NCBI RefSeq assembly: GCF_000969985.1
Contig: NZ_CP009526.1
Span: forward strand, 3,596,001 to 3,660,000
DNA from: Methanosarcina barkeri str. Wiesmoor
GTDB taxonomy: Archaea > Halobacteriota > Methanosarcinia > Methanosarcinales > Methanosarcinaceae
Direction of reading: 5' to 3'
DNA length: 64,000 nt
The notes under the pieces were generated by a model, which worked only from the letters and a program-made list of their open reading frames with translations, was not told the DNA's origin and made no database searches. This document shows positions 4,191 to 39,053 of the stretch, piece after piece. The stretch's first letter is position 1. Every line of letters starts with the position of its first letter. The position numbers were made by a program, and so were the translations under genes.

Positions 4191-4227
4191 AAAAGTATAT
4201 ATATTGTTAAACCATTTAATACCTTGT

Positions 4228-5340
4228 ATGACGAAAGCGTTCAAATTTAGGCTCTATCCTACAGCTACACAAGCTGTTCAGTTAAATCAGCATATAGGTA
4301 GCTGTAGGTTTGTCTACAATTGGGCACTTGATCAGAAAATTAAAACTTATGAACAGACAGGAAAATCAATTTCCAGATTTGACTTAAACAAAAAGCTTCC
4401 TGTCTTGAAAGCTTCTAATGAATGGTTAGGAGAAGTCAATTCTCAATCATTGCAGGGAATGACTAAGCAGGTTGAGTCTGCCTTCACTCGATTTTTCCGA
4501 GAGAAGAACGGCTTTCCTAAGTTCAAATCTAAGAAAAACCCAATTCAATCTTTTCCTGTACCTCAACACTACTCCGTAGACTTTGAAAAAAACACTGTTA
4601 AGCTCCCTAAAATAGAACCAATTAAAGCAGTTTTTCACAGGAAGTTTGAGGGCGAGCTTAAAACAGCTACTGTTTCAAGGACATGTCAAGGACATTACTA
4701 CATTAGTATCCTTGTTGAAGATGGAAAAGAACTTCCTACAAAACAGAAGTATTCAGAATCTACTACAGTGGGTATAGATGTCGGGATTAAAGATTTTGCT
4801 ATACTTTCCACAGGAGAAAAGATTGAGAATCCTAACTACCTGAAAAACTCTTTGAACAGGTTAAAGGTTCTTCAAAAAAGAGTATCAAGGAAACAGAAAG
4901 GTTCTAAGAACAGGGTAAAAGCCAAACATAGGCTTGCTGTACTACATGACAAAATAACTAATCAGAGGAACGACTTCCAGAACAAACTCTCTTTTAAACT
5001 CATAAGCGAAAACCAAGCAATAGCTCTGGAAACTCTGAATGTTAAAGGAATGGTTAAGAATCATCATTTGGCGCAGGCTATAAGTGATTCCGCATGGAGC
5101 AGTTTTGTAACAAAACTAGAGTATAAAGCTGAATGGTACGGAAAAACCATCCTGAGAATTGGGCAATTTGAACCATCTTCTAAAGTATGTCATGTTTGTG
5201 GATATCATAATTCAAATTTGACATTAAAAGATAGAGAATGGACTTGCCCAGACTGTAAAACAAAACATGATAGAGATATAAATGCCGCTATCAATATCAA
5301 GAAATTTGCTCTCATAGATCAAAATCTAATTGGATTATAA
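4228..5340 (+). CDS. tnpB: TnpB, RNA-guided nuclease of IS200/IS605 element
   Basis: A 370-residue OrfB/TnpB protein, the family ancestral to Cas12. I place the start at the ATG at 4228 (MTKAFKFRLYPT), the usual N-terminus; a longer frame from 4204 has no ribosome site. The RuvC triad appears intact: Asp184 in GIDVG, Glu268 in ALETLNV, and Asp350 in HDRDINAAIN. The zinc finger has CHVCGYHNSN ... CPDC. Length and domain order match active TnpB. Known members use an omega RNA from the element's right end to cut DNA at the donor site, which favours retention of the element. Activity here is inferred from intact residues only. Confidence 0.9.
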   Translation: MTKAFKFRLYPTATQAVQLNQHIGSCRFVYNWALDQKIKTYEQTGKSISRFDLNKKLPVLKASNEWLGEVNSQSLQGMTKQVESAFTRFFREKNGFPKFKSKKNPIQSFPVPQHYSVDFEKNTVKLPKIEPIKAVFHRKFEGELKTATVSRTCQGHYYISILVEDGKELPTKQKYSESTTVGIDVGIKDFAILSTGEKIENPNYLKNSLNRLKVLQKRVSRKQKGSKNRVKAKHRLAVLHDKITNQRNDFQNKLSFKLISENQAIALETLNVKGMVKNHHLAQAISDSAWSSFVTKLEYKAEWYGKTILRIGQFEPSSKVCHVCGYHNSNLTLKDREWTCPDCKTKHDRDINAAINIKKFALIDQNLIGL

Positions 5341-20653: not shown

Positions 20654-21073
20654 ATGACGTCAAAATTGATGGACTATTTTAACAAGCAACCGAGAATTGG
20701 GGTTCTCAGCACAGCAAGTAAAGACGGAAAGGTAGATTCGGCTGTTTTCGGCTCACCTCAAATGATTGATGAAAAGACCGTTGTAGTTGCAACAGGTAAG
20801 AACCGCACGTTCTCAAACCTTCAGGAAAACCCTTATGCAATGTTCCTGATAATGGAACCTGGAGCAGATATTATGGCATGGAAAGGGATCAGGGTTTATC
20901 TGAAGTTGAAGGAATCTGCAACATCGGGGGAGATGCTTGATATGATCAAAAGCCAGATCGCAAAAATGGCTGGTGAGGAAGCGGCAAAGATGATATACGC
21001 AACTGCCACCTTCGAGATCATTGAGCTGAGACCTCTCGTTGATATGGGACAGGGCTGGGAGAAATCAATCTGA
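20654..21073 (+). CDS. pyridoxamine 5'-phosphate oxidase-like flavin split-barrel protein, copy 1
   Basis: 139 residues in the small FMN-binding split-barrel fold: MDYFNKQPRIGVLSTASKDG KVDSAVFGSPQM at the N-terminus, KTVVVATGKNRTFSNLQENP as the flavin-phosphate loop and strand, and a C-terminal strand-helix ending VDMGQGWEKSI. Members bind flavin, F420 or heme; the substrate is unknown. A near-copy lies 1.1 kb downstream (21757-22167), differing mainly in a 3-residue deletion (EPGADIMAWKG against EQDTEWKG). A ribosome site (ataggggattt) precedes the ATG. Confidence 0.85.
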   Translation: MTSKLMDYFNKQPRIGVLSTASKDGKVDSAVFGSPQMIDEKTVVVATGKNRTFSNLQENPYAMFLIMEPGADIMAWKGIRVYLKLKESATSGEMLDMIKSQIAKMAGEEAAKMIYATATFEIIELRPLVDMGQGWEKSI

Positions 21074-21756: not shown

Positions 21757-22167
21757 ATGACGTCAAAATTGATGGACTACTTTAACAAGCAACCGAGAAT
21801 TGGGGTTCTCAGCACATCGAGTAAAGACGGAAAGGTAGATTCAGCTATTTTCGGCTCACCCAATATGATCGATGAAAAGACCGTTGTAGTTGCAACAGGT
21901 AAGAACCGCACGTTTTCAAACCTTCAGGAAAACCCTTACGCGATATACATGATAATGGAACAAGATACGGAATGGAAAGGAATCAGGGTTTATATGAAGA
22001 TGAAGGAATCTGCAACGTCGGGGGAAATGCTTGATACGATTAAAAGCCATATCGCAAAGATGGCCGGGGAGGAGGTTGCGCAGATGATGTATGCAACGGT
22101 TATCTTCGAGATCATTGAGCTGAGACCTCTCGTTGATATGGGACAGGGCTGGGAGAAATCGATCTGA
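21757..22167 (+). CDS. pyridoxamine 5'-phosphate oxidase-like flavin split-barrel protein, copy 2
   Basis: 136 residues, close paralog of 20654-21073 with the same MDYFNKQPRIGVLSTSSKDG start, flavin loop and VDMGQGWEKSI end. A stronger ribosome site (gaggagg) lies 8 bp before the ATG. Changes are scattered through the body (MFLIMEPGAD to IYMIMEQDTE; QIAKMAGEEAAK to HIAKMAGEEVAQ), showing time since duplication. Both copies appear intact, so both may be expressed. Confidence 0.85.
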   Translation: MTSKLMDYFNKQPRIGVLSTSSKDGKVDSAIFGSPNMIDEKTVVVATGKNRTFSNLQENPYAIYMIMEQDTEWKGIRVYMKMKESATSGEMLDTIKSHIAKMAGEEVAQMMYATVIFEIIELRPLVDMGQGWEKSI

Positions 22168-26567: not shown

Positions 26568-27512
26568 TTAGATTATCCCATTCTTTTCCAGAAACCCTTC
26601 AAGAGGCACAGAGTGAGTCTGGAAACCGCACACCTTGTAAGGGTCAGCGCCCATTGAAAGAGCTACGAACTGGGCAATATTCATGTGCACCATATCATAC
26701 TTTACGCCAAACTCTTTTTCGATAACAGGCTGGTAGCGGTCGTACTGGATCTGGCAATTCGGGCACATATGGAGCATAAGCTCTACGCCTGCTCTTTGAA
26801 GGCTGTCGAGTTTTGCCTTTGTCACCTGAAGCGAGGTGTTTTTGTTAATGTGAAGCTGGGAAAAGCCCATCCCGCAGGTAAGAGTCCGGTCTTCGTACCA
26901 GCGTACAGGGTCGGCTCCGCAGGCTGCGGCTATGTTATCTATCAACTGGGGGTTTTCAGGGTTTCCGAGGACATCGAGATACTGAACCTTATAGTAATGG
27001 CAAGCGTGATGGGCCGCAGTTTTGATTCCTGAAAAATCGAATTTTTTCTGCTCCTGGATTTTATCGACCTTGCTTAAAAGAATCTCTACTGCGTGGTAGA
27101 TGTTTGTCCTTGGGTTCATATCGTCTTTTTCGTAAACAAGGTTTTCAAGGCCCTTTTCCCGGAAGATGGAGTTCACTTTTTCCCGGACCTCGGTGTTGGT
27201 ATTCAGGGTTTCACAGGCTTCCTTATTTACGGCATAACAGGTTGAACAGAGGCAGGTTATATTGGGATACCCACATCTTCTTGCAACTGCAAAGTTTCGG
27301 GCTGCAATGGCTGCTGTTGTCAGTCCTTCAAAGATATCAGTATAATGGCCTATTCCTGTGCAGCAGGACTGCTCATTGTTTATACAGTAGTCTATTCCAA
27401 GCCTGTCAAAGACATAACAAGTGGAGGTTTCCACCCCTGGGTACTCCTGCTCGACCATGCAGCTTTTAAATAATAAAAGCTGGCTGTCCGGGATATCTTC
27501 TATCGTTTTCAA
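26568..27512 (-). CDS. hdrB: heterodisulfide reductase subunit B (HdrB-type)
   Basis: 314 residues with two CCG-type domains that hold non-cubane [4Fe-4S] clusters and reduce the CoM-S-S-CoB disulfide. Motif 1 is intact: FKSCMVEQEYPG, SCCTGIG, CLCSTC. Motif 2 has HHACHYY, LTCGMG and CPNC; where typical HdrB has CC it has Thr-Cys, so one ligand is missing. The longest frame reaches 27656 but overlaps hdrC with nonsense-like residues. The TTG at 27512 (KTIEDIPDSQLLLF) has ggag upstream and gives the normal HdrB length. Last gene of the hdrA-hdrC-hdrB operon. Confidence 0.88.
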   Translation of the reverse strand: MKTIEDIPDSQLLLFKSCMVEQEYPGVETSTCYVFDRLGIDYCINNEQSCCTGIGHYTDIFEGLTTAAIAARNFAVARRCGYPNITCLCSTCYAVNKEACETLNTNTEVREKVNSIFREKGLENLVYEKDDMNPRTNIYHAVEILLSKVDKIQEQKKFDFSGIKTAAHHACHYYKVQYLDVLGNPENPQLIDNIAAACGADPVRWYEDRTLTCGMGFSQLHINKNTSLQVTKAKLDSLQRAGVELMLHMCPNCQIQYDRYQPVIEKEFGVKYDMVHMNIAQFVALSMGADPYKVCGFQTHSVPLEGFLEKNGII

Positions 27513-28176
27513 AGCCGAAATCTCCGCTTCTATTTTCTCTCTTGATGTACTGGTTCTCCAGGAGTTGATGCAAAAGTTTTTCCTGTATTTTTGCCTTGAT
27601 CCATTTTTCCCTTTCAAAATAGCCTGTGGCTTCAAGAATGGCCTGAACTTCCCCATGGGTGTTTCTGATATCCTTTGAACTCAGCCCCAGTTCATCACGA
27701 ATTGACTCAAGGTTCTTTTTAAAACTGATCCAGCGTTCCCCAAGGTCTCTCTCCATATTCTTAGCTCCAGGACCTGGTATCTTGCTAGCTCCGTTTTCTG
27801 CGAGATATTCTCCTATCTCAAGGAAGTAGGCAAGCTTTTCAACTCCTATGCCCTCGTTGATGGCCATCTGCCTGAGCACCTGTACAATTGTTACAGGGCT
27901 ATTATTTCTGGGACAGCGCAGGTTACAGGAATAACAGTAAAAACAGGACCAGATCATTTCGGACTCAAGCACACTACGGTCGTTTTCCAGTACTTTTTTT
28001 ACAATCTGGCGCGGGCTGTAATCTGTAAAGCGGGCTGCAGGACAGGAAGCCGTGCAGGCGCCGCACTGGATGCAGCGGTCAAGCCCCAGAGAGGCAGGTG
28101 TCCGGATGCTTTTCTTTGCGGTTTCTGCAAGGGTTTTACATTCCGGGGTATCGTACTCGTTTACATATGGAATCAT
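27466..28176 (-). CDS. hdrC: heterodisulfide reductase subunit C (HdrC)
   Basis: 236-residue iron-sulfur protein passing electrons from HdrA to HdrB. Two [4Fe-4S] motifs are clear: CIQCGACTASCPAAR (about residues 35-49) and CFYCYSCNLRCPRN (about 78-91). The C-terminal half (after residue 120) is helical and longer than in the minimal HdrC. Its start overlaps the hdrA stop by 4 bp and its end overlaps hdrB, so the three genes are coupled. Confidence 0.92.
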   Translation of the reverse strand: MIPYVNEYDTPECKTLAETAKKSIRTPASLGLDRCIQCGACTASCPAARFTDYSPRQIVKKVLENDRSVLESEMIWSCFYCYSCNLRCPRNNSPVTIVQVLRQMAINEGIGVEKLAYFLEIGEYLAENGASKIPGPGAKNMERDLGERWISFKKNLESIRDELGLSSKDIRNTHGEVQAILEATGYFEREKWIKAKIQEKLLHQLLENQYIKRENRSGDFGFENDRRYPGQPAFII

Positions 28177-30593
28177 TTGATCATCTCTCCTTCCTGGGCA
28201 AGGCTGGTAAAAGTGCCTGCAAGCCCTCTTGTGTTTGGAACATAAGCTTTTTTGAAATAGAGCCGGCTTCCAGAATCTCCAAGTTCTTTCTTCAGTTTCT
28301 CAAAATGGCTGACAGTTAAAGGATATATAATCTCAGCTTTTGGGCTGTCTGGAGGGTCCTCTACGAAAAGGACAGCCGATGCCCCGCGTTTGAAGGCATG
28401 AAGTAACAGGTCTTTATCAACCACGAGGTTTGTGGGCACTTTGATTAACTTGACATTTGAAGGATAGGTCAGTGCACTATTTCCTATATTATCGCAGGTT
28501 AAGGACGCGATCCCGCTGTTTACAAAGCCAATCAGATCTCCTTCTTCTACTACTCCTTCAACTTCGGCTTTTAGCTGGTTTTTTGTAAAGCCTTCAATCT
28601 GAATAGCTCCGTTCTGACAGAGTTCAGTACAGTATCCGCACCCAGTACAGACAAGTGGGTCTACGATGACCTTTCCATTCTCATTCAAGGAAAAAGCCTC
28701 GAACGGGCACTTGAGACATTCTTTACACTGATCACAGAGAAGCTGATTGATAGTCGGAATTTCGTTTACCAGGGCTTTGGGGCTGTCGGCAATAAAGGCC
28801 CTTGCTCTTACAGCTGCAAGTCCTGCCTGGGAAATAGTATCCGTAACATCTTTAGGGCTCTGGGCAGTACCACAGACAAAGATCCCGTCCAGTGAGCTGT
28901 CTACAGGCCTCAATTTCGAGTGCCTTTCCTTGATAAATCCGCTTTCATCCTGGCTAATATTCAGTATGCTGGCAATTTTTCGGGTTCCTTTTGAAGGGAC
29001 CATAGCCGCAGAGAGTACGACAAGATCAGCAGGCAGCTCTGTTATTTTCTGGTTAAGGGTATCTTCGAGTCTGACAAGAAGGCTTTTATCCGGCTTCTCG
29101 ACAATTTCAGCAGGTCTTCCCCTTACAAATCTAACTCCCATGTCCTGGACTGCCCGATAGTAGTTTTCGTAAAAACCAAGAGCTCGCAAATCGACATAAC
29201 AGATCGTGACTTCCGTACCCGGATATTTTTTCATTATCAGGTTCGAGTGCTTTAACGCGGCCATGCAGCAATACCTGGAACAATAGCGGTTTCCACTTTC
29301 TTTTTCGTCCCTTGAGCCCACACACTGGATCATAACTATCCTTTTAGGGATTCCTGGACTATTCTCAGAGGAATTCTCAGAGGAATTTTCTAAGGAACTT
29401 TTACTGCCACAGGTGCCTGTTGAGCTGACAGCATCAGGGTTCAGGCTGAAATCCGAAGGCCTGATCAATGTCCCTTTTGTAGGGCCATTGATCCCAAGCA
29501 TTCTGGCAAGTTCCATCTGGGTCATAACATTTTTGAAAATTCCATATCCGTACTGGGGTTTCTGGGATGCATCATACTCCTCAAATCCGGTAGCAACAAT
29601 AACTGCACCGACATTGAGCTCAATGATCTCTTCCTTCTGTGAGAAGTCAATCGCTCCGGATTTACAGACCTCTGCACATTTTCCGCATGTTTCGCCTTTG
29701 AACTGCAGACACTGGTCAGGATCTATGCAGTAGATTTTCGGAACGGATTGGGAAAAACGCAGGGAAATTGCCTTTTTATCCATGTACCCACAGTTGAACT
29801 CGTTTTCAACCAAGACAGGGCAGACGCGACTGCATCGGCCACAGCCTGTACAGTTATCGTGTACGTATCTCGGTTTTTTCTTTAGCCTGACTGTGAAGTT
29901 GCCTGCACTTCCACTTAAGCGTTCCACTTCAGTCCAGGTTAAAAGGGTTATTTTCGGGTTAGCTACTACCTCATTCATCAGAGGGCTTAACGAGCACATA
30001 GCGCACTCTTCCGCAAGCTTGTCAGGAGAAAAAACCTTGCCTATTTTTGCCATATTTCCGCCTATACTGGATTCTTTCTCGACCAGGTAGGTGGAAATTC
30101 CGTTGTCTGCAAGGTTAACTGCTGCAGTTATCCCTGCAATTCCTCCGCCAATAACAAGGGCCTGCGGGACGATATTTACTTTTATTTCTTCAAGGGGTTC
30201 CTGATTTTCCAGGCGGTTGAGTTTTCCTCGAAGAAGTGAGAGGGCTTTCTCAGTCGCTCCGGCTTTGTCCGGATGAACCCAGGCACAGTGCTCCCTGAGG
30301 TTTGCGATTTCAAGCATCGCCCGGTTCAAGCCTGCTTCCTGAATACACTTTTTGAAGAGAGTACCGTGTTTGGAAGGTGTGCATGAACCTATTACTATCC
30401 GGTCGAGGTTCCCTTCAGAAATCTTATTTTTAATAAGGGTCTGTCCCTCTCTTGAACAGAGGTACTCATAATCGAAGACCGGGATCCCTTCTGCCTTAAG
30501 GGTTTTCTTAAGTGTATTAATATCAACACGTTCGGAAATGTTCCCACTGCAATGGCAGATAAATACAGCGGTTTTGTCCAGGGCAGCGTTCAT
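28173..30593 (-). CDS. hdrA: heterodisulfide reductase subunit A with degenerate MvhD-like tail
   Basis: 806-residue flavin and iron-sulfur subunit, the electron-bifurcating core of soluble Hdr complexes. The N-terminal domain (FICHCSGNISERVD) runs to ~130. The FAD motif VIGGGIAGITAAVNL starts at 147. Ferredoxin motifs are CTGCGRCSRVCPV and CLQFKGETCGKCAEVC (about 245-310), then CDQCKECLKCP and CTGCGYCTELC near 620-665. A Ser/Asn-rich linker (SSLENSSENSSENSPG) interrupts the middle. The last ~120 residues align with MvhD in shape (IGFVNSGIAS, YPSNVKLIKVP, AFKRGASAVLFVEDPPDSP), but its [2Fe-2S] cysteines are replaced. This kind of fusion occurs in Methanosarcina HdrA; the Cys loss suggests a structural role. 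Confidence 0.94.
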   Translation of the reverse strand: MNAALDKTAVFICHCSGNISERVDINTLKKTLKAEGIPVFDYEYLCSREGQTLIKNKISEGNLDRIVIGSCTPSKHGTLFKKCIQEAGLNRAMLEIANLREHCAWVHPDKAGATEKALSLLRGKLNRLENQEPLEEIKVNIVPQALVIGGGIAGITAAVNLADNGISTYLVEKESSIGGNMAKIGKVFSPDKLAEECAMCSLSPLMNEVVANPKITLLTWTEVERLSGSAGNFTVRLKKKPRYVHDNCTGCGRCSRVCPVLVENEFNCGYMDKKAISLRFSQSVPKIYCIDPDQCLQFKGETCGKCAEVCKSGAIDFSQKEEIIELNVGAVIVATGFEEYDASQKPQYGYGIFKNVMTQMELARMLGINGPTKGTLIRPSDFSLNPDAVSSTGTCGSKSSLENSSENSSENSPGIPKRIVMIQCVGSRDEKESGNRYCSRYCCMAALKHSNLIMKKYPGTEVTICYVDLRALGFYENYYRAVQDMGVRFVRGRPAEIVEKPDKSLLVRLEDTLNQKITELPADLVVLSAAMVPSKGTRKIASILNISQDESGFIKERHSKLRPVDSSLDGIFVCGTAQSPKDVTDTISQAGLAAVRARAFIADSPKALVNEIPTINQLLCDQCKECLKCPFEAFSLNENGKVIVDPLVCTGCGYCTELCQNGAIQIEGFTKNQLKAEVEGVVEEGDLIGFVNSGIASLTCDNIGNSALTYPSNVKLIKVPTNLVVDKDLLLHAFKRGASAVLFVEDPPDSPKAEIIYPLTVSHFEKLKKELGDSGSRLYFKKAYVPNTRGLAGTFTSLAQEGEMIK

Positions 30594-31766: not shown

Positions 31767-31985
31767 CTATTCTTTTGATTCTTTTGATTCTTTTGATCCT
31801 TCCTTTGGTTCTTTTGATTCTTTTGATCCTTCCTTTGGTTCTTTTAATTCTTTTGATCCTTCCTTTGGTTCCCTTCCTTTGGTTCTTTTGATTCTTTTGA
31901 TCCTTCCTTTGGTTCTTTTGATCCTTTTGATTCTTTTGATCCTTCCTTTGGTTCTTTTGATTTTTTGATTCTTTTGATTCTTGTA
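31767..31985. repeat. ~30-bp pyrimidine-rich tandem repeat
   Basis: About seven irregular units of ttcttttgattcttttgatc followed by cttcctttgg. Sub-units of 9-10 bp (ttcttttga) are evident. The strand asymmetry is extreme, with very few A on the plus strand. Confidence 0.9.
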
Positions 31986-36051: not shown

Positions 36052-36291
36052 ATGCTTCGAATTGTGGTCGACCTGAACCGATGTGAGAGCTACGCTCAGT
36101 GCGTATTTGCCGCACCGACGGTATTCTGGATGAAAGATGAAGAGTCGCTTGAATTTGATTATGCACCGGATGATTCACTACGAGTGCAGGTAGAACGTGC
36201 AGCTGCAGCTTGCCCGGTACAGGCGATTAGTATTTGCTGGCTGGATGAGCAATCAGAGCAGCGGGGGGAAAATCACAATGAAAAGCAATGA
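36052..36291 (+). CDS. [3Fe-4S]-type ferredoxin of a P450 system
   Basis: 79-residue ferredoxin starting MLRIVVDLNRCESYAQCVFA APTVF with a second Cys in AAAACPVQAISI. The spacing C-x5-C...CP, with a non-Cys residue in the second position of the usual C-x2-C-x2-C motif, is the mark of the small ferredoxins that feed actinobacterial-type P450s. It lies directly before the reductase and the P450 on the same strand, with aactggaggtt as ribosome site. Bacterial in style, and the surrounding DNA is richer in G+C than the flanks. Confidence 0.88.
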   Translation: MLRIVVDLNRCESYAQCVFAAPTVFWMKDEESLEFDYAPDDSLRVQVERAAAACPVQAISICWLDEQSEQRGENHNEKQ

Positions 36292-37711
36292 TGCCAAGAA
36301 AACTGTCTCCTCTGTACAAAGAATAGTTATCCTCGGCGCCTCGTTGGCTGGTTTGAGTGCTGCAGAGGCACTTCGTTCCGAGGGATTTGCCGGGACGTTA
36401 ACTGTAATCGGCGATGAACCATATGCTCCCTATGATCGCCCGCCTCTGTCTAAAAATGTCCTCACAGGCTGGCTACCAGCAGAGCACACGACCTTACCGC
36501 AGAGTGTTGATCTACAGGCCGAGTGGTTGCTTGGTGTGCCCGCTACAGGGCTTAATCTGGATAACCGGGAGGTCGAGCTTGCCGATGGGAGACGGTTTGG
36601 ATTTGACCGTTTGTTGATCGCCACAGGGGCGCGTGCCAGGCCGTGGCCAGATTCGGCACAGGCTGCTCTTGATGGAGTTTGCCTATTGCGTACCCGCGAT
36701 GATGCTGCCCAGCTACGAGCCCGGTTAGCTGCCAGGCCGAAGCGAGTACTGGTGATTGGTGGTGGTTTCATCGGCTCCGAGGTTGCTTCAGTCTGCAGAG
36801 AACTAGGTCTGGCTGTCACAGTCACAGAACGCAGCGCTACACCTCTCATAGGCGCTCTCGGTGCGGCTGCGGGTACGCTTGCTGGCCAGCTCCAGCGCGT
36901 GCATGGCGTCGATCTGCGCTGCAACGTCACGGTTATGGCGCTGGAGGGAGATGAGAGTGGGCGGCTACGTCGTGCCTATCTTTCGGATGGCGATATACTC
37001 GATATCGATGTGGCTGTGATCGCTCTTGGAGCAATACGAAACGTCGAATGGTTACATAATTCTAGGCTGGCGTTTGACTCCCATGGGATAGCCTGTGATG
37101 CTGCCTGTCGTGCTTTTGATACCGATGGAATGGTCACAGATGACATTTTCGTTGCTGGGGACGTGGCTCGCTGGCCTCACCCGCTTTACGAAGGCGAGCT
37201 ACTGGCAGTCGAGCACTGGGGAAATGCTATTGAGCAGGCAAGGACGGCCGCACATAATATGGTGAGTGCTCCGACAGATCTCAGGGCATACAAAACCCTG
37301 CCCGCCTTCTGGTCTCGTCAGTTTGGTGTCAACCTGAAGACGGTCGGCCTTCTACGCTTCGCCGATGAAGTTGTGCTCACACAGGGCTCTATCTCGGAAC
37401 GCCGGTTGGTTGCAGCCTATGGCTACAAAGGCAGAATTGTTGCAGCGCTCACCGTAAATATGGCCCGCTGGTTGCCTGCTTACCGGGCAATGATCGAGGA
37501 CCGTGCACCGTTTCCGCCCGTACTTCATGCTCCTGATGGTCCAGCTGAGCTTCGGCCAGTTCCTGCCGGATTTCCATTTCGTGGACAACCTACCCACAGC
37601 CCTAATGCTACACAGACTGGTCCAGGTCCTAGCACACCTCCTCCAGAAGAATCGTCTACAAGCACCAAAGTGAAGGACCCTCGTGTACCGCCAGGGTTCC
37701 GGCCCAAATGA
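36278..37711 (+). CDS. FAD/NAD-dependent ferredoxin reductase of the P450 system
   Basis: 477 residues from the ATG at 36278 (MKSNDAKKTVSSVQRIVILG), chosen for the ggggggaa site upstream; the gene overlaps the ferredoxin by 14 bp. FAD motif VILGASLAGLSAAEALRSEG, NAD motif VLVIGGGFIGSEVASVCREL, and the second FAD motif DDIFVAGDVARWPHP. It is a putidaredoxin-reductase-like enzyme that moves electrons from NAD(P)H to the ferredoxin. The last ~65 residues are a Pro/Ser/Thr-rich tail (PGPSTPPPEESSTSTKVKDP) not usual in the family. Probably acquired from bacteria together with its neighbours. Confidence 0.92.
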   Translation: MKSNDAKKTVSSVQRIVILGASLAGLSAAEALRSEGFAGTLTVIGDEPYAPYDRPPLSKNVLTGWLPAEHTTLPQSVDLQAEWLLGVPATGLNLDNREVELADGRRFGFDRLLIATGARARPWPDSAQAALDGVCLLRTRDDAAQLRARLAARPKRVLVIGGGFIGSEVASVCRELGLAVTVTERSATPLIGALGAAAGTLAGQLQRVHGVDLRCNVTVMALEGDESGRLRRAYLSDGDILDIDVAVIALGAIRNVEWLHNSRLAFDSHGIACDAACRAFDTDGMVTDDIFVAGDVARWPHPLYEGELLAVEHWGNAIEQARTAAHNMVSAPTDLRAYKTLPAFWSRQFGVNLKTVGLLRFADEVVLTQGSISERRLVAAYGYKGRIVAALTVNMARWLPAYRAMIEDRAPFPPVLHAPDGPAELRPVPAGFPFRGQPTHSPNATQTGPGPSTPPPEESSTSTKVKDPRVPPGFRPK

Positions 37712-37724
37712 CAGGAGGCAGACC

Positions 37725-39053
37725 ATGACACAGCAATCCTTGTATGAGCAGGTTCTTGACTACGCCAATCGTGCCAATCCTTATCCTCTATATGCCAAAC
37801 TACGCCAGACACCAATTACGCGACAGATAGATGGTAGCTACGTTGTCAGTACTTACCGGGAGATTGTCTCGCTACTTCATGATCCCAGGATTGGTTCAGA
37901 CTTCCGCATGCGTTCCGCTCACGATCGTCCTTCTGCAGGCCTTTCGGCAAATCAGGAGCTCGCCTCTAAAAATCAGGCGCAGGACGAAGGCGCGGAAACA
38001 TCCTCATCCAACCAGGGTTCAGAAACTGAAGTTGTTCCAAGCTTCATTGGTCTGGACCCACCTGAACATGATAGACTGCGCCGGCAGGCTACATGGCCTT
38101 TTGGTCCCCCGCACACACCGGGCAGAGTGGCTGACATGGAACCTGAACTGATCCTCCTTGCAAATCGACAGATAGATACTATAAAGGGCAGGACATCGAT
38201 TGACATCGTCGAGGACTTTGCTTATCCAATCCCGGTAACGATGATCAGTGAGCTACTTGGGGTACCACCCGAGGATCAGCCACGCCTTCACGCTTTATCA
38301 GAAGCTATTATCGAAGACATTGATCTGGATCCCCGACAAAGCCCGGAGGAACAAAAGCGGCGACAAGAACAGTCTAGTCAGACCTTTAAGGAGCTCGAAC
38401 AATATATGGAGGTGCTGATTGAGCACCATCGCAAGCAGCCTGGTTCTGACCTGCTTTCAGGACTCATAACAGACCATGGTTCCGATGGGCCGATGGCCCA
38501 GGCAGATCTTGTGAGCACTGCAAGCTTGTTGCTCATTGCCGGTCATGAGACCACAGTGAACCTGATTACCAACGGCATGCTCACACTGTTGAGACATCCT
38601 GATGTCCTCGAACGGTTACGGCGCGAACCAGATCTGGTTATTCGTCTGGTTGAGGAGTTTTTACGCTACGAGCCTCCTGTCCAGATTCTGCCAAATCGCG
38701 TGGCACTTTCCGATATTACTATTGCCGGTACTACGATTCAGAAAGGCTCACCTGTGATTCTGCTGCTTGCCTCTGGAAGCCGTGATCCGGCTCGTTTCCA
38801 CGATCCCGAGAAATTCGACCCTGATCGCAGGGATAATATGCACCTTGGCTTTGGCAGCGGCATCCATTACTGTTATGGCGCTCCACTTGCAAGGTTGGAA
38901 ACGCAGATTGCACTAACAGAGCTTGTACAACGGCTCGAAAACCCCAGGCTCGCGCATGATCCACCCCCATACCGGCAGAGTGCTACTCTACGAGGACCGC
39001 GACATCTCATTGTTGAGATCGATGGCGTGAAGGACTGGGAGTTCCATTTATGA
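37725..39053 (+). CDS. cytochrome P450
   Basis: 442-residue soluble bacterial-class P450 starting MTQQSLYEQVLDYANRANPY PLYAKLR with aggaggc as ribosome site. Heme ligand loop FGSGIHYCYGAPLAR (Cys in F-G-x-G-x-H-x-C-x-G), I-helix LLIAGHETTVNLI with the acid-Thr pair for oxygen activation, K-helix EEFLRYEPP (ExxR) and the L-helix are all intact. A hydrophilic stretch (about residues 70-105, NQAQDEGAETSSSNQGSETE) is inserted before the usual FIGLDPPEHDRLRR. P450s hydroxylate small organic molecules with O2; the substrate here is unknown. Its partners are encoded just upstream. This is unexpected in a strict anaerobe. Confidence 0.95.
   Translation: MTQQSLYEQVLDYANRANPYPLYAKLRQTPITRQIDGSYVVSTYREIVSLLHDPRIGSDFRMRSAHDRPSAGLSANQELASKNQAQDEGAETSSSNQGSETEVVPSFIGLDPPEHDRLRRQATWPFGPPHTPGRVADMEPELILLANRQIDTIKGRTSIDIVEDFAYPIPVTMISELLGVPPEDQPRLHALSEAIIEDIDLDPRQSPEEQKRRQEQSSQTFKELEQYMEVLIEHHRKQPGSDLLSGLITDHGSDGPMAQADLVSTASLLLIAGHETTVNLITNGMLTLLRHPDVLERLRREPDLVIRLVEEFLRYEPPVQILPNRVALSDITIAGTTIQKGSPVILLLASGSRDPARFHDPEKFDPDRRDNMHLGFGSGIHYCYGAPLARLETQIALTELVQRLENPRLAHDPPPYRQSATLRGPRHLIVEIDGVKDWEFHL

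Follow-up and report, generated by a model that had tools for sequence, protein, structure and literature searches.

In HdrABC complexes linked to MvhD (Hdr, heterodisulfide reductase), the donor arm feeds the [2Fe-2S] cluster of MvhD, a separate subunit, near the bifurcating flavin adenine dinucleotide (FAD) (PMC12350162). One published route takes electrons onward through the C-terminal ferredoxin domain, with the inserted ferredoxin domain as the exit for the bifurcated ones (PMC9012536), and the published routes differ in some details (PMC12350162, PMC9012536). In HdrA2 (MA2868; family NF040770), the HdrA core is fused to a C-terminal FlpD domain, and F420H2- and ferredoxin-linked bifurcation has been reported for HdrA2B2C2 (PMC5296606). 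HdrA1B1C1, by contrast, is a long-known Methanosarcina enzyme whose biochemistry has stayed open: a 2018 review states that its role still needs validation and that HdrA1, unlike HdrA2, has no MvhD extension (PMC6019823), and Chadwick 2022, who scored HdrA domains, grouped the HdrA1 of anaerobic methanotrophic (ANME) archaea with HdrA1 MA3128 (PMC9012536). Here, we have tried to focus on one small part of this enzyme, the C-terminal tail of HdrA1, as it is encoded in a 64,000-nucleotide stretch of Methanosarcina barkeri str. Wiesmoor (NZ_CP009526.1, positions 3,596,001 to 3,660,000), which we call the window. What is this tail, and what does it say about the way in which electrons enter the enzyme?

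The identity of the locus is the simplest part of the answer. HdrA (28173..30593, 806 amino acids) matches NF041778 at 1559.5 bits (cut-off 1400), HdrC (27466..28176) matches NF041779 at 392.2 bits (cut-off 350), and HdrB (26568..27512) matches NF041780 at 502.3 bits (cut-off 450), all on the minus strand, as are all of the hdr features given below. Because all three subunits exceed their NCBI family cut-offs, the window operon is, by sequence, hdrA1C1B1 as known from Methanosarcina acetivorans, whose HdrA1 (MA3128) shares its family and its gene set; another HdrA1 from the same genus (L004) is 81% identical. The hdrB1 open reading frame (ORF), 26568-27656, overlaps hdrC1, but the family match begins at ORF residue 55, and TTG at 27512 is the probable start. 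The window HdrA scores 737.4 bits against NF040770, the HdrA2 type, below the cut-off of 1100. NF041778, a curated NCBI family, bears the name ferredoxin:CoB-CoM heterodisulfide reductase (CoB and CoM, coenzymes B and M), which is a name and not a functional test. The FAD-binding motif VIGGGIAG (residues 147-154, 30132..30155) is in place, and the FAD/NAD-binding Pfam matches start there.

An initial annotation of this DNA, made from its letters, had noticed three MvhD-like landmarks in the tail, each with its Cys replaced, and had proposed an alignment to HdrA paralogs and a structure prediction as checks. The landmarks were correctly read, and both checks bear out the MvhD relationship together with the cysteine loss. 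Residues 688-800 match PF02662 (FlpD, cut-off 22.3) with 56.6 bits (E 3.3e-15) when the tail is searched alone and with 54.8 bits within the full-length protein, and a sequence search finds the MvhD-type chains 9sfi_K, 8rvv_F, 8rvu_F, and 5odc_D at E 0.0004-0.02. A model of the tail (predicted local distance difference test score, pLDDT, 89.6) aligns with the MvhD/ElpC chains 8rvu_F, 7bkb_F, 5odh_D, and 5odc_D over 123 residues at 2.2-2.3 A, with Z 15.1-15.5 as against 8.5 for the best unrelated chain, although the model was built from an alignment with Cys-bearing relatives and the fold match is not independent of homology. By sequence and predicted fold, then, residues 687-800 (28194..28535) are an MvhD/FlpD domain; besides this gene, the 4.9-Mb genome has just one other FlpD match at E up to 0.001, HdrA2.

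What this domain has lost is the means to hold a cluster. Aligned to Cys-bearing HdrA2 tails, all five columns of the conserved [2Fe-2S] site are replaced: N692 (28518..28520) stands at the first conserved FlpD cysteine, I695 (28509..28511) at that of NWC, T721 (28431..28433) at that of CSGR, D746 (28356..28358) at that of GC, and P751 (28341..28343) at the last, that of GDC/DEC. The HdrA2 of the same organism retains its cysteines (FLCNWC, TMCSAR, AGCRMDEC). In a larger alignment, the five columns hold Cys in 25/25 Cys-bearing HdrA rows and in none of the 46 Methanosarcinaceae HdrA1 rows, a tally that includes the window itself and partial rows such as L039, L046, L047, and L048; the larger tallies here and below omit partial proteins shorter than 450 amino acids (L090, L109, L124) as well as duplicates and near-copies (L002, L005, L049-L084, L089, L100). 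The window tail has the predicted fold of MvhD, but where MvhD is a separate subunit with a cluster, it is fused and has no ligands. With those ligands gone in 46/46 rows, a tail of this kind is not expected to serve as a relay in the manner of MvhD, and the electrons need another way in.

Is the tail simply decaying? Ligand loss throughout the 46 rows, together with the ratio of nonsynonymous to synonymous substitution rates (dN/dS), argues that it is not: compared with the window, tail dN/dS is 0.06-0.26 in 15/16 pairs (the last is saturated), and that of the HdrA core is 0.04-0.09. These sequence comparisons indicate a tail that is less constrained than the core yet clearly under selection, conserved rather than decaying. 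Among 20 aligned HdrA1 tails, 27 columns are invariant, KKAY.P among them (KKAYVP in the window, residues 781-786, 28236..28253), and an E-D/E-x-x-D loop occupies the former cluster site.

Nor is the cysteine-less tail confined to Methanosarcina. A tail profile search finds weaker relatives in other archaea, and most of the HdrA tails retrieved likewise lack the cysteines; the matches listed from named contigs extend the set to Methanobacteriaceae, archaea of the Bathyarchaeota type, and two bacteria and include no Methanosarcina HdrA1. To place these proteins, trees were made after removal of near-identical rows, which left 74, 69, or 42 rows. The core tree (69 rows, HdrA core only, with the tail excluded and the E356 column masked; quick search, with support from the Shimodaira-Hasegawa-like approximate likelihood ratio test, SH-aLRT) gathers HdrA1, three groups that we label f15, f8, and f21/f2, one f5 sequence, and the Methanobacteriaceae into one clade of 24 rows with support 100.

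According to one proposal, K409 and E356 (numbered as in M. thermolithotrophicus HdrA) tell bifurcating proteins apart from non-bifurcating ones (PMC12054007). Aligned to 5odc_A, the window HdrA1 has the first of these as K448 (29250..29252) and carries A363 (29505..29507) in place of the second. E356 is lost in 24/24 clade rows of the core tree and present in the 45/45 others, a single change; the larger tally shows the loss in 63/63 clade rows (59 Ala, 3 Gly, 1 Ser) and E356 retained in 53/53 other tailed HdrA, and K409 is kept in all rows of both sets (63/63 and 53/53). PMC12054007 counts E356 as absent in 87/401 HdrA, and the available part of that paper does not name the HdrA1 clade for it. 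HdrA2, which shares the architecture of the window HdrA1, keeps both its FlpD cysteines and E356, where HdrA1 has lost both. On these alignments, the E356 loss argues against an F420 enzyme that bifurcates or confurcates.

The cysteines tell a less tidy story. None is found in the ligand columns of the 63 clade rows or of 28 other Cys-less rows, namely 22 ANME-type rows (among L093-L129), four Bathyarchaeota-type rows (L159, L162, L191, L206), and two bacterial rows (L155, L185); because all 28 keep E356, cysteine loss alone is no marker of the clade. The best core tree requires three changes for the ligand-Cys loss, and for a single origin, the approximately unbiased test gives p-AU 0.09 with the Cys-less rows and 0.18 without the two bacterial rows (42-row set). 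Among the closest known counterparts is the HdrA of Methanobacteriaceae (NF041891; five loci, four of them rows of the tree), which falls in the same clade and, like the window HdrA1, has a Cys-less tail (5/5) and a replaced E356 (5/5); two members exceed the NF041891 cut-off, and that family, too, is named ferredoxin:CoB-CoM heterodisulfide reductase. Its operon differs from the window's hdrA1C1B1 in its order, hdrCBA, and in its intact C-terminal ferredoxin cysteines.

If electrons do not arrive through the tail, where might they enter? The initial annotation had suggested ferredoxin or F420 partners; the second suggestion fares badly given the loss of E356 in 63/63 rows, and the first fares better. 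The inserted ferredoxin domain has its first cluster motif at residues 248-258 (29820..29852) and its second, CX7CX2CX3C with a 5-residue insertion, at residues 295-310 (29664..29711). In an alignment of 30 HdrA, none of its eight cysteines (C248, C251, C254, C258, C295, C303, C306, C310) varies, and at least eight cysteines occur in this region in 62/63 clade rows, the sole exception (L048) being a contig-edge fragment that begins after the first motif. For this reason, we favor ferredoxin, on the sequence evidence, as the electron input to HdrA1, with the inserted domain likely its port. In a low-complexity insertion of HdrA1 (SSENSSEN, residues 385-411, model pLDDT <50), a 12-bp tandem repeat lies at 29361-29387.

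The C-terminal ferredoxin domain has been treated less kindly. Its second cluster motif (residues 649-659, 28617..28649) is intact, and its first (residues 620-629, 28707..28736) has lost one residue to read CX2CX2CX2C, a spacing common to 46 Methanosarcinaceae HdrA1 loci, where HdrA2 and 5odc_A have CX2CX2CX3C. All eight cysteines remain in the f5 sequence, seven remain in f15 (3/3) and f8 (4/4), and the domain is gone in f21/f2 (4/4). The four f21/f2 proteins (L116, L121, L091, L092) retain the Cys-less FlpD tail.

The catalytic subunit HdrB is altered as well. The second CCG motif of HdrB1 is TCG, with Thr for the first Cys (26877..26879), so that only one of two five-cysteine CCG motifs is complete. 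The same is true, in one motif or the other, of 31/31 clade HdrB with data and of 0/19 others, which keep ten of ten cysteines: in Methanosarcinaceae, Methanobacteriaceae, and f5a, the second motif is changed by Thr (His in L150), and in f15, f8, and f21/f2, the first is changed by two Ser (the partial L241 HdrB is readable in its first motif only). By sequence, then, several changes go together in the clade: the MvhD domain is without its cysteines, E356 has given way to another residue with K409 retained, HdrB has one incomplete CCG motif, and several lineages have a C-terminal ferredoxin domain that is modified or missing.

The company that these genes keep points in a metabolic direction. 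Apart from HdrB and HdrC, seven proteins served as queries against the loci (phmmer, at least 40 bits), for which 16 of 47 Methanosarcinaceae loci were taken; the loci are unequal in length, from about 3.7 to 20 kb, with the window at 64 kb. HdrC and HdrB genes adjoin hdrA in 31/32 clade loci, and in the remaining one (L240), a contig end cuts hdrA. Genes of CoM biosynthesis (ComA, cysteate synthase, ComDE, or MMP16) lie beside 10/32 clade loci and beside 0/47 controls, which include bacteria and non-methanogens (30/47 are methanogen or ANME by our own sorting). Fisher p values of 4e-5 against all controls and 9e-4 against the 30 methanogen/ANME controls ignore relatedness and are descriptive only; a cautious count of the linked lineages is three, the Methanobacteriaceae, f15 plus f8, and one Methanosarcinaceae genome. 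ComA and MMP16 stand beside 3/5 Methanobacteriaceae loci (two with ComDE beta too), unlike the window locus; cysteate synthase and ComDE stand beside 3/3 f15 loci; MMP16 stands beside 3/3 f8 loci, two of which add cysteate synthase and ComDE; and the Methanosarcinaceae genome G106 has cysteate synthase, ComDE, and MMP16 beside its operon. Among the Methanobacteriaceae, the CoM auxotroph M. ruminantium is listed as having no comADE (PMC10658910). Genome searches agree in f8, where MMP16 adjoins HdrA (in some cases a contig-edge piece) in 6/7 genomes and the remaining one, 70% complete, has neither a tailed HdrA of the clade type nor a full MMP16, and in f15, where HdrA lies next to cysteate synthase in 3/4 genomes and the fourth has no such HdrA. 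Two COG1900 matches among the controls (L263, 146 bits; L264, 149 bits) were not counted, scoring 175.6 and 180.8 against the MMP16 cut-off of 363.95, and a cysteate-synthase-like match in L240 is a threonine synthase.

Thus, we have gone past the initial annotation on four counts: the gene is HdrA1 specifically, its Cys-less tail is conserved across distant archaea, its partner HdrB is altered too, and some related operons adjoin CoM biosynthesis genes. In the titles, abstract openings, and passages that we searched, there was no mention of a cluster-free MvhD domain on HdrA1 or of its adjacency to CoM genes, and this hidden domain is added here to the picture given in the 2018 review, where it is missing (PMC6019823).

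How might such an enzyme work? The reading that we think has somewhat better than even chances is a non-bifurcating, ferredoxin-fed Hdr that serves CoM/CoB thiol supply, with the tail as a cluster-free structural domain. Every mechanistic step beyond the ligand loss is one that we infer. Reduced ferredoxin would dock at the inserted ferredoxin domain of HdrA1; electrons would then pass via the HdrA clusters to HdrC and HdrB, with FAD perhaps a simple carrier; and HdrB would reduce a CoM/CoB-type disulfide, without bifurcation. The cluster-free domain would stay on the donor-arm face permanently, as a structural cap or a docking piece that leaves hydrogenase, formate dehydrogenase, or F420 modules unwired, and the physiological service of HdrA1B1C1 would be the supply of CoM and CoB thiols.

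Published physiology fits in places. Deletion of hdrABC in M. acetivorans lengthens the doubling time by 81% over the parent with cysteine as sole sulfur source, and CoM plus acetate rescues the growth defect (PMC9963511); the deletion also lowers total CoM from 28.2 to 16.7 nmol/mg and brings CoB below detection (PMC12713407); and MMP16 deletion induces hdrABC along with cs and comDE (PMC12068725). The authors of the deletion studies put their phenotypes down to heterodisulfide recycling; the sequence data allow a closer tie of hdrABC to thiol synthesis. The sequence evidence predicts no bifurcation for HdrA1B1C1 and names the residues concerned. With the altered HdrB and the CoM neighbors of related operons, the puzzling deletion phenotypes (low CoM, CoB undetectable) become a connection between a disulfide reductase and cofactor synthesis that can be put to the test.

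A good deal weighs on the other side, and it should be said in one place. The reduced fraction of CoM rises from 82 to 93% in the hdrABC deletion (PMC12713407), which a plain disulfide-reductase role does not predict, and the effect of the sulfur source varies between papers, with 9.64 versus 10.71 h listed for growth without added sulfide in one report (PMC12713407) and 15.3 versus 27.8 h in another (PMC9963511). A published proposal has HdrA1B1C1 itself participating in ferredoxin/F420/heterodisulfide bifurcation or confurcation (PMC6019823), and the Methanobacteriaceae keep all eight C-terminal ferredoxin cysteines (5/5). The genomic link to CoM is also patchy: in the window genome, 2.1 Mb separates hdrA1 from MMP16 and cysteate synthase, only 1/16 Methanosarcinaceae loci is linked to CoM genes, and in the same neighborhood count, none of the five f5a and f21/f2 loci has them. 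Because MMP16 exceeds its cut-off in 95/111 genomes of the family and a strong HdrA1-type tail (at least 190 bits) is found in 47, the enzyme is not required for CoM synthesis everywhere.

A bolder version, to which we give perhaps one chance in a handful or slightly more, makes the whole clade a distinct enzyme class: a ferredoxin-driven, non-bifurcating, HdrABC-like thiol reductase for CoM/CoB biosynthesis, whose HdrB has just one complete CCG site and whose MvhD domain, free of metal, is a docking piece. Its electrons would go to reductive sulfur insertion by MMP16 or related COG1900 enzymes or to the reduction of a persulfide or disulfide intermediate. If true, this would explain the lower total CoM and CoB after loss of hdrA1C1B1 and, in one report, why growth was worst without sulfide.

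Less probable still is that HdrA1B1C1 does take part in F420-linked bifurcation or confurcation, as Yan and Ferry put forward in 2018 with reference to Buan and Metcalf 2010 (PMC6019823), and that its tail is no more than a silent leftover of a fusion like that of HdrA2. K409 kept in 63/63 rows and the presence of the inserted ferredoxin cysteines would suit such an enzyme, but E356 is lost in 63/63 clade rows when the 53 other tailed HdrA keep it, the tail is under purifying selection with KKAY.P invariant in 20 sequences, unlike a relic, and no F420 subunit was named among the neighbors scanned, which were part of the neighboring ORFs.

We regard as equally unlikely a tail that is a putative docking module for one specific partner, ferredoxin or the CoM synthase MMP16, to which HdrABC would pass electrons directly. 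The replacement of the cluster site by KKAY.P and the E-D/E-x-x-D loop in 20 tails is what one might look for in such a module, and in f8 genomes, about 128 bp separate hdrA from the gene for MMP16, a protein with a built-in ferredoxin domain (PMC12068725), whose gene also adjoins the operon in G106 and three Methanobrevibacter-type contigs. However, adjacency may reflect shared regulation only, 15/16 Methanosarcinaceae loci are unlinked, and KKAY.P was not seen unchanged in Methanobacteriaceae tails. That the cysteines lie elsewhere or that the tail is unrelated to MvhD is very improbable: C700, the sole cysteine of the window tail, is near the site but in no ligand column and is missing from the tails of L018, L027, and L040, and the FlpD score (56.6 bits) and the MvhD fold (Z 15.1-15.5) both tie the tail to MvhD.

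A few other features of the window deserve a word. At 4204-5340 (plus strand), there is an IS605 OrfB/TnpB-type protein with a Cas12f1-like TNB domain, and at 20654-21073 and 21757-22167 (plus strand), there are two tandem, very similar PNPOx_N-type proteins; a PNPOx_N protein also adjoins hdrC in L237. A degenerate 9/30/39-bp tandem array at 31769-31982 separates two similar small proteins of 133 and 137 amino acids, neither of which has a Pfam match at E 1e-5. Finally, at 36197-39053 (plus strand), a flavoprotein of the ferredoxin-reductase type (with Pyr_redox_2 and Reductase_C) stands in tandem with a cytochrome P450 at 52-57% G+C, against about 34-42% outside, a bacterial-looking oxygenase pair, probably acquired, in a strict anaerobe.

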